Positions 1 to 32,599 of a stretch of 32,599 nucleotides of DNA are shown here, one piece after another. Origin of the DNA: a virus; the IMG/VR virus record IMGVR_UViG_3300032820_000062, positions 1-32,599 of that record. One strand, written 5' to 3'. A program made the position numbers and the translations under genes. Within the stretch, counting starts at the first letter, position 1; the number at the start of each line of letters is the position of its first letter. The notes beneath the pieces are model-generated. The model did not search any database. It saw nothing but the letters and a program-made list of their open reading frames with translations, and was not told the origin of the DNA.

Positions 1-1
1 G

Positions 2-1069
2 CATGCGCAACCTGATGGTGAACTTGTTGACGTTATGGAAACGTCAACGGCGAACCGCCGGCAGCCGATGATTGTGTACCTGACGACTAGCGACTTCGAG
101 CGCGAGGGCTCTGTATGCAATGAGAAACACGGATATGCAACAAAGGTTCGCGATGGAATTATTGAAGTTCCCGAATTCTTGCCTTGCATCTTCGAAGCCA
201 AGCTTGACGATGACTGGGCCGACCCTAAAGTCTGGAAGAAAGCAAACCCGAATCTCGGAATATCGGTGTCAGAAGACTATCTCGAAAAGGCTTGCGCGAA
301 GGCGAAAGAGCTTCCGCGGTTCACAAATGAATTCAAGCGCCTTCACCTGAACCTTCGGACGGAACAGTCAGAACTCTGGATACCGCTAGACAAATGGGAT
401 GCCTGCAAATCTGAATACGATGCGGCAGACCTGGAGGGCAAGGAATGCTTCGCGGGTCTTGACCTGGCATCAACTAGCGATATCACCGCGCTGGTTCTGT
501 TGTTCCCGATGGGTGACGGCGAATTTAGAACCTTGGGTTTTTACTGGGTCCCTGAAGCGGCCATCGTGAAACGAACGACGCGCAACCATCCGTTCTACGC
601 AACTTGGAAAGAGGCCGGGCATATGCGTTCAACGCCTGGCGATATGACGGACTACGCTTTCGTCCGGAAGCATATTAACGAACTGGGTAAGCAGTATCGG
701 ATCCGGGAAATTGCGGTCGATAGGTTCTTCCAGGGCGCGCAGCTGTCGAACGAATTACAGGAACAAGACGGCTTTGAAGTCGTGGCGTTCGGTCAAGGTT
801 TCGCGTCGATGGGCGCGCCTTCGCTGGAGTTCGAGGGATTGGTTCGACGTGAAAAGCTTCGGCACAACGGCGACCCGGTTCTGCGTTGGATGGTGTCGAA
901 TATCTGCGTGAAGCGTGACGAAGCCGGAAACATCAAGCCCGACAAAAAGAGAAGCGGCGACAAGATCGACGGAGTTGTTTCGACGATCATGGCAATAGGT
1001 CGGGCAGCTGCCGGCATCAAGAAAGAAACGGCCAGCGTGTATGAAACGCGCGGCATGATCTGGATATAA
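2..1069 (+). CDS. terL: Terminase large subunit, C-terminal part (continues from the right edge)
   Basis: This is the 3' part of the DNA-packaging motor; its first ~196 codons lie at 31854-32441, joined through the circular overlap, giving a 551-residue protein, normal for HK97-type terminases. Codons are open from base 2, so the ATG at 35 is internal and not the start. This part has the end of the ATPase domain and the RNase H-like nuclease domain: GLDLASTSD (whole-protein residues about 348-356) holds the first metal-binding Asp, AVDRFF (D436) the second, and SGDKIDG (D519) the third. The enzyme cuts the concatemer and drives DNA into the prohead with the portal encoded 15 bp downstream. 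Family assignment (Terminase_1 type) is from motif layout and neighbours. Confidence 0.95.
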   Translation, partial: HAQPDGELVDVMETSTANRRQPMIVYLTTSDFEREGSVCNEKHGYATKVRDGIIEVPEFLPCIFEAKLDDDWADPKVWKKANPNLGISVSEDYLEKACAKAKELPRFTNEFKRLHLNLRTEQSELWIPLDKWDACKSEYDAADLEGKECFAGLDLASTSDITALVLLFPMGDGEFRTLGFYWVPEAAIVKRTTRNHPFYATWKEAGHMRSTPGDMTDYAFVRKHINELGKQYRIREIAVDRFFQGAQLSNELQEQDGFEVVAFGQGFASMGAPSLEFEGLVRREKLRHNGDPVLRWMVSNICVKRDEAGNIKPDKKRSGDKIDGVVSTIMAIGRAAAGIKKETASVYETRGMIWI

Positions 1070-24127: not shown

Positions 24128-25219
24128 CTAGTTGACCGCAGCAGAACAAATAGACTCCACCTCGTGAACGGTGTCCGACCATTCACCGCCGCCGGCGAAC
24201 TTGTCGACGGCGACTTCGAACGCGCGGGTCTTGATGTCAGCGCCCGTTCCGAACAGCGCCTGATTAGTTCGGGCGCTGTCGGTAGAACTCGGCTGGCGTG
24301 CATAATCAACGTAGCCGGTGACCGCGTTCCAGGCACCGAAGGCCGTCCCCTGCCGCGTGGGCAGGTCATGGCCTGGGCCGTTCCGCGATTCATCAAGGAC
24401 TCCGTTCCACTGGTTGATCCAATAGCCGGTAGGCTGCCCGGTCGCTTTCCACTTGTCCAGCGTGGCGCGACTTGGTGGCATCGCTGCCACGGCCAGACGC
24501 CAGACATCAGCGCGGGAAACCTTCACTTTCGCCAAGTCCCGCGCGACCTGTTCGTGCGACCGGATCGCACGGTCGGCAACATCCAACGCGGCAGAAATCT
24601 GGCCGAGTTGCGACTTCGTGTTGCCCTTGTGATTGATGCTGAACGACACCTGATCGTCAACATCGGCATCGAAACCGCGACGGGCCAGCGCGTACGTGTT
24701 GCCGCAGACGACGTAAACACTGCTGAACCCGCCCTGAAAGGCGGCGGTGGTATCGAACGAATTCGTCAGCAGCAACGTATTCAATCCGCGGTCATGCTGG
24801 TCAACGCTGAATTCACCGATGATGCCCTGAACCCAGCTTTTTTCACCGTTACCCAGAACGCCGGCCGTTATGATTCCGGCGATGTCACCGGAATCGATGA
24901 ACGGCCGCAGAAGTTCAAGCATCTGTTCGTTTTGAATAATTTCATAACGTTCAGACGCAGAGCCCAGCGGTTGCAGGGTATCCGTTCGAACAATTTGGAC
25001 GCCCCTGCCAGCGTGTACGGTTTCGTTTCCGTCGTCATCCGTGACGATGAACCCGCTCGGGAACTGTTCCGCGCGGAAATCCAGGCCGGCCAAGGCCTTC
25101 GCCGATTCGATGTCCATCAACTCATCGGAGCGTTGCCCGGTTCCGTGCCAGACAGGCACCCGGCCCCAAGCGGCCATCCTATAACGTCCATCAGCAAACT
25201 GATTCAAATTGGCTGCCAT
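24128..25219 (-). CDS. DUF932 / TIGR03299-like phage-plasmid protein
   Basis: A 363-residue protein; the ATG is preceded by GAAAGGG. Characteristic DUF932 pieces are present: VPVWHGTGQRSDELMDIESAKALAGLDF, RTDTLQPLGSASERYEIIQNEQMLELLRPFIDSG, LLLTNSFDTTAAFQGGFSSVYVVCGNTYALA and FSINHKGN. The family is widespread in phages, plasmids and mobile islands; its biochemical role is not established. It lies between two small genes on the minus strand, downstream of the structured RNA region, so it may depend on the RNA promoters. Confidence 0.88.
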   Translation of the reverse strand: MAANLNQFADGRYRMAAWGRVPVWHGTGQRSDELMDIESAKALAGLDFRAEQFPSGFIVTDDDGNETVHAGRGVQIVRTDTLQPLGSASERYEIIQNEQMLELLRPFIDSGDIAGIITAGVLGNGEKSWVQGIIGEFSVDQHDRGLNTLLLTNSFDTTAAFQGGFSSVYVVCGNTYALARRGFDADVDDQVSFSINHKGNTKSQLGQISAALDVADRAIRSHEQVARDLAKVKVSRADVWRLAVAAMPPSRATLDKWKATGQPTGYWINQWNGVLDESRNGPGHDLPTRQGTAFGAWNAVTGYVDYARQPSSTDSARTNQALFGTGADIKTRAFEVAVDKFAGGGEWSDTVHEVESICSAAVN

Positions 25220-25286: not shown

Positions 25287-25538
25287 TCAAACGCTGTCGC
25301 GATCTTCCGCGCGATCTAATACGCTCCGCACGCCGTCCGATCCGACGTAAACTGAAAGCGCGTTCTTCAGATGTGAGCGAACAATCGAAATCGAACCAAC
25401 GTCCGACAATAGGATCGGCTCGTGTTCGCTGCGATCAATGGTCGTTCGGTTTAGAATCTGATACCGGATTTCGTCGATCAGCGCCGCGCAGTCGCGGAGC
25501 CCAACAAAATAGCTTTCTTCTGCTTTCGTTAGCTTCAT
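25287..25538 (-). CDS. Small protein, unknown function
   Basis: An 83-residue protein from the ATG at 25538, with GAAAGGAAG upstream. It is acidic/helical (MKLTKAEESYFVGLRDCAALIDEIRYQILNR...SIVRSHLKNALSVYVG). No family is recognised. It is the first protein gene after the long structured RNA, with its ribosome site only about 10 nt beyond the last RNA hairpin, so the RNA may be its 5' untranslated region or be processed away from it. Confidence 0.6.
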   Translation of the reverse strand: MKLTKAEESYFVGLRDCAALIDEIRYQILNRTTIDRSEHEPILLSDVGSISIVRSHLKNALSVYVGSDGVRSVLDRAEDRDSV

Positions 25539-25555: not shown

Positions 25556-26561
25556 GCCCGCGGCCAATTCCGCGGGCGGGTCGAGACAGCGCCCGATAGG
25601 GGCGGGTCGAAGGGCCACTTGCAGCTTCCGGTAAGCCTTCCGTTCGATTCGGATCAGTGATATGTTGCATCTATCTTCAGATGGGTCCAACCGTTTCCGC
25701 GAATTCTAGGACCGACTTGCCATTGCGAGCGGTGCCTTGTCCGGGCCGCCCCTATCAGACGCTGTCGTTTTTATGTGGTGCCGAATCGCAAGCCGCTTTC
25801 CGAGCTTACGACTCTGGTAGCTCTTCACCTTCAGGCCCGAAGGCCGTACTAACTCGACTACCCTAGCCCGCTGCGTCACGTCACGGACCTGGCTACAGTT
25901 GTCGGCCATTGCTGGCCGGTACTTTGTAGACCTGCTGGCTACCCGGTCTTTGCGTTGCCCGTCTACCCTGCCCTTTATCCCGTCGCCGGGAAGGCATGGC
26001 TGACCGGTCTACGAATCGGGGCTTACTAAGCCAGCCGATCAGTAAACCGCCCACTTGCTAGGGGTTGTTTTAACGTCGATAGGTGCTGCGCCGATCATCG
26101 TCCGCTCGTATCATCACCGTAGTAAACGGCTCCGAAGCGGCCCGCGATTCGGCACCACATTGTCTTGAGCGCCGAAAGCCACCGGCTATACGTTCCAGGT
26201 CTGATTTGTCCCGATAACGAAAAGCGGTCGAAGTTTCGCCTTTCGTGCAGCCGTTAGTCTGCGACGCCCCAGCGACAGGTAGCTATCACAGGTCGCCGGC
26301 TTTCGCCGTTGTCCTATGACTGGGAAATCGGAGGAACCTGTCAAGTTTTAGATTCAAATCAGATCGTCTTAGCTCCGACAAAAGCCGGTGCCTTTCGACG
26401 CTCAAGTTTTTTATTTCCTGACCCGCACAAAGTTCTTCGGGCCCCTTGGCTTGACCGGCTTCATTCAGCCGCCCACGCGCTTCGTCGCGTTGTTGTCCGC
26501 GTCGTCCGTGTTATTCAGTTTTAAAAGACCGTTTGGGTTTTGTTTCTTTCCCAACCTCACT
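25556..26561 (-). ncRNA. Long structured non-coding RNA (~1 kb)
   Basis: On the minus strand from the start predicted by the promoter at 26568-26596. There is no credible protein gene on either strand. Elements in RNA order: a ~150-nt leader shared with the short RNA; a 5' domain with GNRA hairpin CGGC-GAAA-GCCG (26308-26297); a 26-bp helix, fully paired with two G-U (26160-26135 with 25798-25773), enclosing many hairpins such as GTAGACC/GGTCTAC, GGCTT-AGT-AAGCC and GGCC-UUCG-GGCC; a 3' domain closed by a 21-bp helix (25766-25746 with 25605-25585); and a final perfect 8-bp hairpin (25577-25556). The 3' domain recurs in the short RNA with compensatory base changes. Size and phage context recall GOLLD/ROOL-type giant RNAs; family membership is not established. 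Confidence 0.85.
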
Positions 26562-26567
26562 ATACAT

Positions 26568-26596
26568 ATTATACAACATTTAAGATCGTTTGTCAA
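26568..26596 (-). promoter_or_regulatory. Consensus sigma70 promoter of the long ncRNA
   Basis: Reading the minus strand: TTGACA (26596-26591), 17-nt spacer, TATAAT (26573-26568). Both boxes and the spacing are perfect. The predicted start is near 26561, inside the repeated leader. Confidence 0.92.
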
Positions 26597-26649
26597 GTAG
26601 AATCTGGTTGGAATCACGATATTTTTAACACGATGTAGAATATAAAGTG

Positions 26650-27021
26650 ACGCTTTCTGGCGCCGTATATCCGCACGGCCCGAAGAACTTTGTGCGAGTC
26701 GACAACGCCCCGGCGGAGCGGGTTCGATAGGGCGGCTTATCCGCGTGGTGTGAGCCTTCCGTTTGATTCGGATCAGTTGAGCCCAACCGTTTCCGCGAAT
26801 TCTAGGACCGACTGACCAGCGGTAGCGGCCGCCTTGGGCGACCCGCCCCGCCGGGACGTTGTCTTTGGTTTATTTCCTGACCCGCACAGAGTTCTTCGGG
26901 CCCCTTGGCTTGACCGGCTTCATTCAGCCGCCCACGCGCTTCGTCGCGTTGTTGTCCGCGTCGTCCGTGTTATTCAGTTTTAAAAGACCGTTTTGGTTTT
27001 TGTTTCTTTCCCAACTTCACT
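26650..27021 (-). ncRNA. Short structured non-coding RNA (~0.37 kb), paralogue of the long one
   Basis: Minus strand, from the promoter at 27028-27056. It has the same leader as the long RNA but goes directly into the 3' domain. Its closing helix has 23 pairs (26863-26841 with 26723-26701) and differs in sequence from the long copy while keeping pairing. The inner blocks CGGTCCTAGAATTCGCGG... (26783-26813) and the 25-nt block at 26753-26777 are almost identical to the long copy, and a hairpin present in the long copy between them is absent. A 3' tail (26700-26677) is complementary to the leader over 24 nt and would close the molecule. The 3' end is approximate; no T-run is seen. Confidence 0.8.
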
Positions 27022-27027
27022 ATACAT

Positions 27028-27056
27028 ATTATACAACATTTAAGATCGTTTGTCAA
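27028..27056 (-). promoter_or_regulatory. Consensus sigma70 promoter of the short ncRNA
   Basis: Minus strand TTGACA (27056-27051), 17-nt spacer, TATAAT (27033-27028), identical to the promoter of the long RNA. Start near 27021. It diverges from the plus-strand promoter at 27229. Confidence 0.92.
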
Positions 27057-31116: not shown

Positions 31117-31897
31117 TCTTGTCCCGTACTATCAAGACGAGTCCGCGACGATCTACCACGGTGACTGCCTTGATGTTCTTGGCAAACTGGAATCATCAGG
31201 GGCGCGCATTGATGGAGTAATCACCGATCCGCCATACGCTTCCGGGGCGCGGACGGAAATGGGGAAGAAGTCGTCTGGAAGCATGTTGCGGGGGGGGAAT
31301 TGGGCAGACAAGCCGATCGAGAACGACCAGATGACGACCGCGGGGTTTGTGTGGTTTACTAGACAAATCGCGTTTTCGTGTAAGAACATGATGCCCGACG
31401 GGGCATCGTTCTTGTCTTTCATTGATTGGCGGAACTGGCCGAACATGCTAGGCGCTTTGGAGTCGGTAAACCTGCGCGTAAACAATATGATCGTTTGGGA
31501 CAAGGCAACGGGTGGACTTGGTAATGGGTACCGCGGTCAGCACGAATTGATCGTCCACGCTTCTAAGGGTGTTGCAGACATGAACCGCGACATTTACCAG
31601 ACTAACGTTATCCAGTGCGGTCGTGAGTCCAATGCTGCACACCCGTCACCGAAGCCGGAGCAGCTGATGCTGGCGCTGATGTCTGTTATGGTCAGAAAGG
31701 GCGACTTGATTCTTGACCCGTTGATGGGTTGCGGCCCCGTGTTAACAGCGTCGAAGTTATGGGGCGCCAAATCTATTGGTATCGAGATCAACGAACAGTA
31801 TTGCGAAATAGCGGCAAACCGGTTAACGCAAAGCGTTCTGGACTTTGAACGAAATGGCGAAACAAAACAAGAAGCCCATACCGAAGCGCTGGCTTGA
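31076..31897 (+). CDS. DNA methyltransferase, N6-adenine/N4-cytosine type (beta order)
   Basis: A 273-residue enzyme placed between the two terminase genes. Motif IV DPPY is at 51-54 and the SAM-binding motif I (LDPLMGCGP) at 213-221, i.e. catalytic motif before the SAM region, the beta-class order; HPSPKP (189-194) and IGIEINEQYCEIAANRL are typical supporting motifs. The target cannot be read. Solitary phage methyltransferases usually protect against host restriction; being translated with terminase it may mark DNA around packaging. The start could be ATG 31073 or 31076; its end overlaps terL by 44 nt. Confidence 0.93.
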   Translation: MKKNPRTTSCRPDNLVPYYQDESATIYHGDCLDVLGKLESSGARIDGVITDPPYASGARTEMGKKSSGSMLRGGNWADKPIENDQMTTAGFVWFTRQIAFSCKNMMPDGASFLSFIDWRNWPNMLGALESVNLRVNNMIVWDKATGGLGNGYRGQHELIVHASKGVADMNRDIYQTNVIQCGRESNAAHPSPKPEQLMLALMSVMVRKGDLILDPLMGCGPVLTASKLWGAKSIGIEINEQYCEIAANRLTQSVLDFERNGETKQEAHTEALA

Positions 31898-32599
31898 AGT
31901 GTTCGAATCGTTGCCCGGCTATGATCCGGTCGCCACTGCTGCGCCGGGCCATTGGTTCGACGTGACGAAAGCGGACCACGCCGCGAAGTTTTTCCCGTTC
32001 ATCTTGAAACACGTCAAGGGCGAAATGTACGGGAAGCCGTTCGACCTTCAGCCGTGGCAGCAGGCGGTCGTCGGTTGTCTTTTTGGTTGGAAGCGCGCAG
32101 ACGGTACGCGGCGTTACCGCGAAGTCTTCATCTTCATAGCTAGGAAGAACGGCAAGACGTGCTTCGCTGCCGGCCTTATCTTGTATACGTTGTTCTGCGA
32201 TAACGAAGCGGGCGCGGAAATCTACGGCGCCGCGTCTGAATACAAGCAAGGGTGCCTTGTTTTTGAACATGCGCGCGGAATGATTAAGCAAGAAGAAACT
32301 CTGTCGAACAGATGCCAGGTTTACAACGGTCAGGCGAAGGCGATCACGGTTGAAGAGACGCTGTCATCCTATCGCGTGGTATCTTCGGAAGCTTATAGCA
32401 AACATGGCTACAATACGCACCTGGCGGTCATCGACGAACTGCATGCGCAACCTGATGGTGAACTTGTTGACGTTATGGAAACGTCAACGGCGAACCGCCG
32501 GCAGCCGATGATTGTGTACCTGACGACTAGCGACTTCGAGCGCGAGGGCTCTGTATGCAATGAGAAGCACGGATATGCAACAAAGGTTCGCGATGGAAT
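31854..32599 (+). CDS. terL: Terminase large subunit, N-terminal part (continues at base 2)
   Basis: The ATPase half of the packaging motor. It starts at ATG 31854, inside the end of the methyltransferase gene, and is cut by the window edge. MAKQNKKPIPKRWLEVFESL leads to KPFDLQPWQQAVVGCLFGW, the Walker A-like FIARKNGKT (about 94-102), an adenine-side region and the Walker B VIDELH (192-197, acidic pair D194/E195). From 32441 onward the sequence repeats bases 1-159, so reading continues in the same frame at the left edge. Confidence 0.95.
   Translation, partial: MAKQNKKPIPKRWLEVFESLPGYDPVATAAPGHWFDVTKADHAAKFFPFILKHVKGEMYGKPFDLQPWQQAVVGCLFGWKRADGTRRYREVFIFIARKNGKTCFAAGLILYTLFCDNEAGAEIYGAASEYKQGCLVFEHARGMIKQEETLSNRCQVYNGQAKAITVEETLSSYRVVSSEAYSKHGYNTHLAVIDELHAQPDGELVDVMETSTANRRQPMIVYLTTSDFEREGSVCNEKHGYATKVRDG
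32441..32599. repeat. 159-bp terminal repeat of the contig (also at 1-159)
   Basis: Bases 1-159 and 32441-32599 are the same except A127 versus G32567, a synonymous Lys codon change in terL. The repeat lies wholly inside terL and its frame is continuous, so it reflects a circular assembly cut at an arbitrary point, not physical terminal repeats. Confidence 0.95.

Follow-up and report, generated by a model that had tools for sequence, protein, structure and literature searches.

The 32,599-nt phage sequence analysed here as a single window (IMG/VR record IMGVR_UViG_3300032820_000062, positions 1 to 32,599) is predicted to contain two adjacent minus-strand genes, each for a large folded RNA. 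These appear, on balance, to be paralogous stable-RNA genes of the phage that are built like an rRNA precursor, with a boxA-containing leader followed by domains bracketed by long stalks. In the modelled folds, the 3' tail of the short RNA, in which the initial annotation saw a sign of regulated pairing or assembly between the two RNAs, most likely pairs back within the short RNA, as one strand of its long closing stem, and is not a joining device.

Promoters, leaders and downstream genes

The features of the transcription units are the following:
27028..27056, minus strand: promoter of the short RNA, TTGACA-17-TATAAT, 12/12 consensus positions
26973..26989, minus strand: rRNA-type boxA in the leader of the short RNA, GGTCTTTTAAAACTGAA, at about +32 from the predicted transcription start
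26568..26596, minus strand: promoter of the long RNA, identical to that of the short RNA
26533..26554, minus strand: boxB-like hairpin in the long leader, UUGGG...CCCAA, upstream of boxA, recognised by fold and sequence
26514..26530, minus strand: rRNA-type boxA in the leader of the long RNA, recognised by its position weight matrix (PWM) score
25556..25577, minus strand: 8-bp hairpin after the last domain, without a U-run
25287..25538, minus strand: small ORF downstream of the long RNA, with a Shine-Dalgarno-like AGGAAG
24128-25219: DUF932 gene after the small ORF

The two promoters are the only sites in the window that match the sigma70 consensus at 12 of 12 positions, and the motif GGTCTTTTAAAACTGAATAACA is located some 32 nt downstream of the predicted start in the RNA leaders. 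The closest relative of the phage TerL is a planctomycete sequence (L024, Phycisphaerae, 58%); accordingly, the 16S genes of Planctomycetota were taken for the boxA comparison. The host of the phage is probably a planctomycete. The TerL gene is divided between the two ends of the window (1-1069 and 31845-32597, in one direction), so that the contig, at 32.6 kb, probably represents a complete phage genome, circular or circularly permuted. Most of the fetched Planctomycetota 16S genes are preceded by a boxA (GNTCTTTGAMAA), for example, TGTTCTTTGAAAACTGAATAGCC (L120) and GCTCTTTGACAATTGAATAACTG (L122). With a PWM built from 23 such 16S leader sites, both RNA leaders rank first in the window at 17.67 bits, the next best site scoring 12.8. 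A score of this size is expected 4e-5 times within 80 positions; the window-wide maximum in simulations reaches 17.65 bits at the 95% level, so that the significance of the boxA rests on its position. At one strong position, the phage boxA departs from the rrn consensus, with T instead of G in TCTTTGA, and the same T is present in one Planctomycetota rrn leader (L135). Near the 5' end of each RNA there is a boxA that matches the one in rrn leaders of Planctomycetota, the likely host phylum; the two copies stem from one duplication. The boxB-like potential of the short leader is weaker than that of the long leader, at 4 bp.

The stretch from the last domain to the ORF at 25538 revealed no convincing terminator, and transcription may continue past the 25556-25577 hairpin into the next gene; the terminator-like site 3' of the short RNA (26664-26649) is weak and not above chance expectation. 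The small ORF and the DUF932 gene are probably the remainder of the long-RNA transcription unit and, given the lack of a convincing terminator, the long transcript may double as the leader of the DUF932 operon. In an extreme version of this relationship, the hairpins would be nothing but a regulatory 5' leader of that operon, involved in attenuation or processing; the short RNA would be a copy of it located upstream, and the locus would make no functional RNA in free form. We consider this unlikely. It is true that the ORF at 25538 is on the same strand as the RNAs, with no clear terminator separating them, and that promoter-boxA leaders precede protein genes in other viral contigs (L156 and L175), but three stalked domains and a conserved core, spread over 1 kb of untranslated leader, are far more than is needed, and DUF932 genes at 33 loci elsewhere have no such RNA.

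The tail and the closing stalks

The two RNAs consist of the following elements:
26879..26902, minus strand: leader strand, the 5' strand of the outer closing helix of the short RNA
26864..26878, minus strand: A-rich single-stranded linker between the outer and the inner helix, AGGAAAUAAACCAAA
26701..26863, minus strand: rod domain of the short RNA, with the inner stalk 26863-26841/26723-26701 and the conserved core 26830-26735
26677..26700, minus strand: tail, the 3' strand of the outer closing helix, GACUCGCACAAAGUUCUUCGGGCC
26420..26443, minus strand: leader strand of the long RNA, a duplicate of 26902-26879
26164..26406, minus strand: H1 domain of the long RNA, closing stalk 26406-26383/26187-26164, 24 bp
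25773..26160, minus strand: H2 domain of the long RNA, closing stalk 26160-26135/25798-25773, 26 bp
25585..25766, minus strand: H3 domain of the long RNA, stalk 25766-25746/25605-25585, 21 bp, a paralogue of the short-RNA rod
25576..25582, minus strand: tail remnant GACCCGC, 7 nt, complementary to GCGGGUC (26426-26420) of the long leader

The complementarity of the tail to both leaders, on which the initial annotation was based, is real. Over 24 nt, the tail (26700-26677) forms 22 Watson-Crick pairs with its own leader (26902-26879), together with the A-C mismatch already described and a G-U pair that had not been mentioned; with the long leader (26443-26420), there are 23 Watson-Crick pairs and one G-U. 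The strict helix scores are 19 and 23, respectively, whereas 40 first-order-Markov simulations of the 1.48-kb region never exceed 14 and the rest of the window never exceeds 12; of the unrelated stretches on both strands of the window, the one that best fits the long leader forms 20 of 24 pairs, counting G-U. The fit to the long leader, described as even better, indeed includes one more Watson-Crick pair and no mismatch, but this is due to a single difference between the leaders, C 26890 in the short and U 26431 in the long one. The leaders are copies of one sequence (a 148-nt block with 94% identity), and the promoter, leader and first approximately 150 transcribed nucleotides differ between the copies mainly by 3 substitutions and 1 indel, located before the linker. 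Because the leaders are duplicates, the match of the tail to both of them is a single observation.

The tail adjoins, without a gap, the 3' arm of the 23-bp helix 26863-26841/26723-26701 and is, therefore, predicted to be the 3' strand of a continuous closing stalk. When the short RNA is folded, the two helices combine into a stalk of about 47 bp that is interrupted on its leader strand by an A-rich bulge of 15 nt, and the rod closed by the tail has an MFE of -167 kcal/mol (z -9.8). Pairing of leader and tail in cis within the short RNA is strongly supported by this model. The suggestion that the short RNA circularises its ends is not exact, as the predicted start precedes the leader strand by some 120 nt.

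All five closing stalks of the locus are 21-26 bp long, with scores of 19-24 as opposed to the simulated maximum of 14, and the flanks around the folded bodies thus exceed the 17 bp taken as the minimum for such stalks (PMC10250234). The kinship of H3 with the short-RNA rod did not form part of the initial annotation. The cores of the short RNA and H3 share long identical blocks, AGUCGGUCCUAGAAUUCGCGGAAACGGUUGG and CUGAUCCGAAUCrAACGGAAGGCUyAC being common to both. Among the 21 pairs compared between the inner stalk of the short RNA and the H3 stalk, 5 show double compensatory changes and 2 one-sided changes, and none is broken; when the arms are swapped between the two stalks, only 17 of the 21 pairs form. 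These compensatory changes are direct evidence of selection on an RNA helix, albeit read from the sequences of one paralogue pair. The claim that the long RNA has no matching tail holds only in part, since GACCCGC follows H3 (25582-25576) at the position homologous to the tail, although this remnant is only 7 nt long, and its 7-bp pairing with the leader, when forced, is 1.6 kcal/mol above the MFE. Together, the paralogy of H3 and the tail remnant suggest that both RNAs share one plan, in which the outer helix is long in the short RNA and short in the long RNA. Read on the plus strand, the core (25641-25652; also 26760-26771) is CCGTTCGATTCGG, which resembles a tRNA T arm, probably by chance.

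Capture of the tail by the long leader, in trans or, in a read-through transcript, in cis, as part of a regulated switch or a heteromer, is energetically possible and yet, in our view, improbable. The duplex with the long leader is the more stable one (-46.8 compared with -43.1 kcal/mol for the own leader), the short RNA and the long leader gain about 7 kcal/mol when folded together (-215.1 vs -208.2 kcal/mol apart), the MFE structure of the read-through RNA pairs the tail with the long leader, and the latter has no full partner inside the long RNA. This heterotypic preference, however, amounts to the one C/U difference between near-identical duplicated leaders; the rod of about 47 bp holds the tail on its own leader, which is transcribed first and adjacent to it, and the long leader has partners of its own in the 7-nt remnant and a local 6-bp hairpin (probability about 0.7 for the isolated strand 26420..26443). 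With the tail pairing in cis and the leaders duplicated, there is no complementarity beyond duplication and cis structure that would point to a trans antisense RNA. Nothing further was found in favour of regulated pairing between the two RNAs; the boxA leaders and the uniform stalks favour folding and processing of a precursor instead. That the inverted repeats act as DNA (an origin, packaging or recombination site), with incidental RNA folding, is highly improbable despite their concentration at one genome site, given that two consensus promoters with boxA drive transcription through them and that the paralogous stalks retain or gain G-U combinations, at pair 8 (U-G) and pair 10 (C-G to U-G), that form pairs in RNA but not in DNA.

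Searches for relatives and boxA-led operons in other phages

Homologues of the RNAs were not detected by blastn against phages and plasmids, by a search of GTDB genomes with a 20-nt core, or by blastn and a covariance model in 392 Planctomycetota genomes, where the single weak matches in L112 and L290 were judged to be due to chance; core-motif patterns in IMG/VR gave only protein-coding or chance matches. Anchoring the search on RecT and DUF932 did not lead to any related phage. In an unrelated viral contig (L156, 2-805 and 878-959), a boxA-led early operon is located directly 3' of a DUF932-like gene, and its boxA (GGTTCTTTTAAAAC) is almost identical to that of the phage. The link to DUF932 hinted at by this contig was rejected, being absent at 33 other DUF932 loci.

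Combinations of promoter and boxA are found at 54 places (30 independent) in viral contigs, compared with 48 (19) for a reversed boxA. Six of the independent places start tRNA operons (1 of 19 for the reversed boxA), and 7 places are associated with long helices (again 1 for the control). This enrichment is suggestive only and not significant by count. Stalks around tRNAs show no general excess in the boxA-led tRNA operons, where long stalks mostly surround non-tRNA elements. Several phage tRNA operons with a perfect promoter and boxA at their start include non-tRNA elements that share a conserved stalk, CCATATTGAArCACAyT...ArTGTGyTTCAATATGG; the bodies inside this stalk, about 60-137 nt long, are unrelated. 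An Rfam scan of L159, L169, L194 and L201 reported only tRNAs. The stalked tRNA-operon elements are located as follows:
L194, reverse complement: 7734, 7935 and 8307
L181: 823 and 1044
L169: 778
L159, reverse complement: 1414
L201, reverse complement: 6098

Proposed pathway and known systems

Under the rRNA precursor-like organization that we favour, each RNA would be transcribed from an identical consensus sigma70 promoter, and the boxA within the first 50 nt or so would load the host NusB/S10 antitermination complex, enabling the polymerase to traverse a highly folded, untranslated stretch of about 0.35 to 1 kb. The complementary flanks that bracket every domain are computed to form closing stalks of 21-26 bp. 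Once transcribed, the tail would pair in cis with its own leader, like the leader-trailer helix of pre-16S or pre-23S rRNA, and RNase III could then cut the stalks and free the domains; the fit of the tail to the long leader would be a by-product of the leader duplication. The most likely guess is that the domains are structural or protein-binding RNAs that are abundant during infection. More generally, it is conceivable, if still speculative, that phages run stable-RNA operons via the host rRNA route, with boxA antitermination and leader-trailer stalks, and so produce abundant non-ribosomal structural RNAs; the present locus would then be an orphan multi-domain example, and the stalked elements in boxA-led phage tRNA operons would be another. 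If this is right, an odd complementarity turns into the testable claim that large folded phage RNAs follow the leader-stalk logic of rRNA, the escape of a long untranslated RNA from Rho is explained, and promoter, boxA and stalked domains make up a signature with which phage RNAs could be searched for beyond sequence similarity.

Precursors of rRNA start with boxA, followed by domains closed by long leader-trailer helices; such a helix, which RNase III cuts, must span at least 17 bp for active 30S subunits to form (PMC10250234). The phage locus resembles these operons in its consensus promoter, the boxA in the leader, the long closing helices of each domain, and a repeat of the leader set ahead of the second unit; in the long leader, the hairpin precedes boxA, as does boxB in rrn. 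It differs in having several 21-26 bp stalks within one RNA. Derivation of the bodies from rRNA, suspected from short look-alikes, was rejected, the best match to Planctomycetota 16S/23S scoring 22.6 bits, below the shuffle median; the locus encodes no 16S, 23S or 5S rRNA, and the likeness is one of layout.

Among other systems, a retron or DGR RNA was discarded, since there is no reverse transcriptase in the Pfam matches of the 44 window proteins or the 25 listed PHROG families. Large ornate phage RNAs, such as GOLLD and ROOL, the latter of which can equal 16S rRNA in abundance (PMC12286853), are likewise long, highly folded, non-coding and phage-borne, but the present locus has long near-perfect stalks, and there is no tRNA in the window. 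GOLLD/ROOL-type families gave no match at E up to 1 in the window or up to 10 in the locus, and covariance models of the large RNAs in Rfam (GOLLD, ROOL, OLE, raiA etc.) gave no convincing one. Lambda-type nut sites and Nus-dependent phage leaders share a boxA and a hairpin just 3' of an early promoter, whereas in the locus the hairpin comes before boxA, as in rrn, and the transcript is mostly untranslated folded RNA. The phage tRNA operons of L159, L169, L194 and L201 have the same promoter-boxA start and non-coding elements with stalks of 15-21 bp, but differ in sequence and mainly contain tRNAs.
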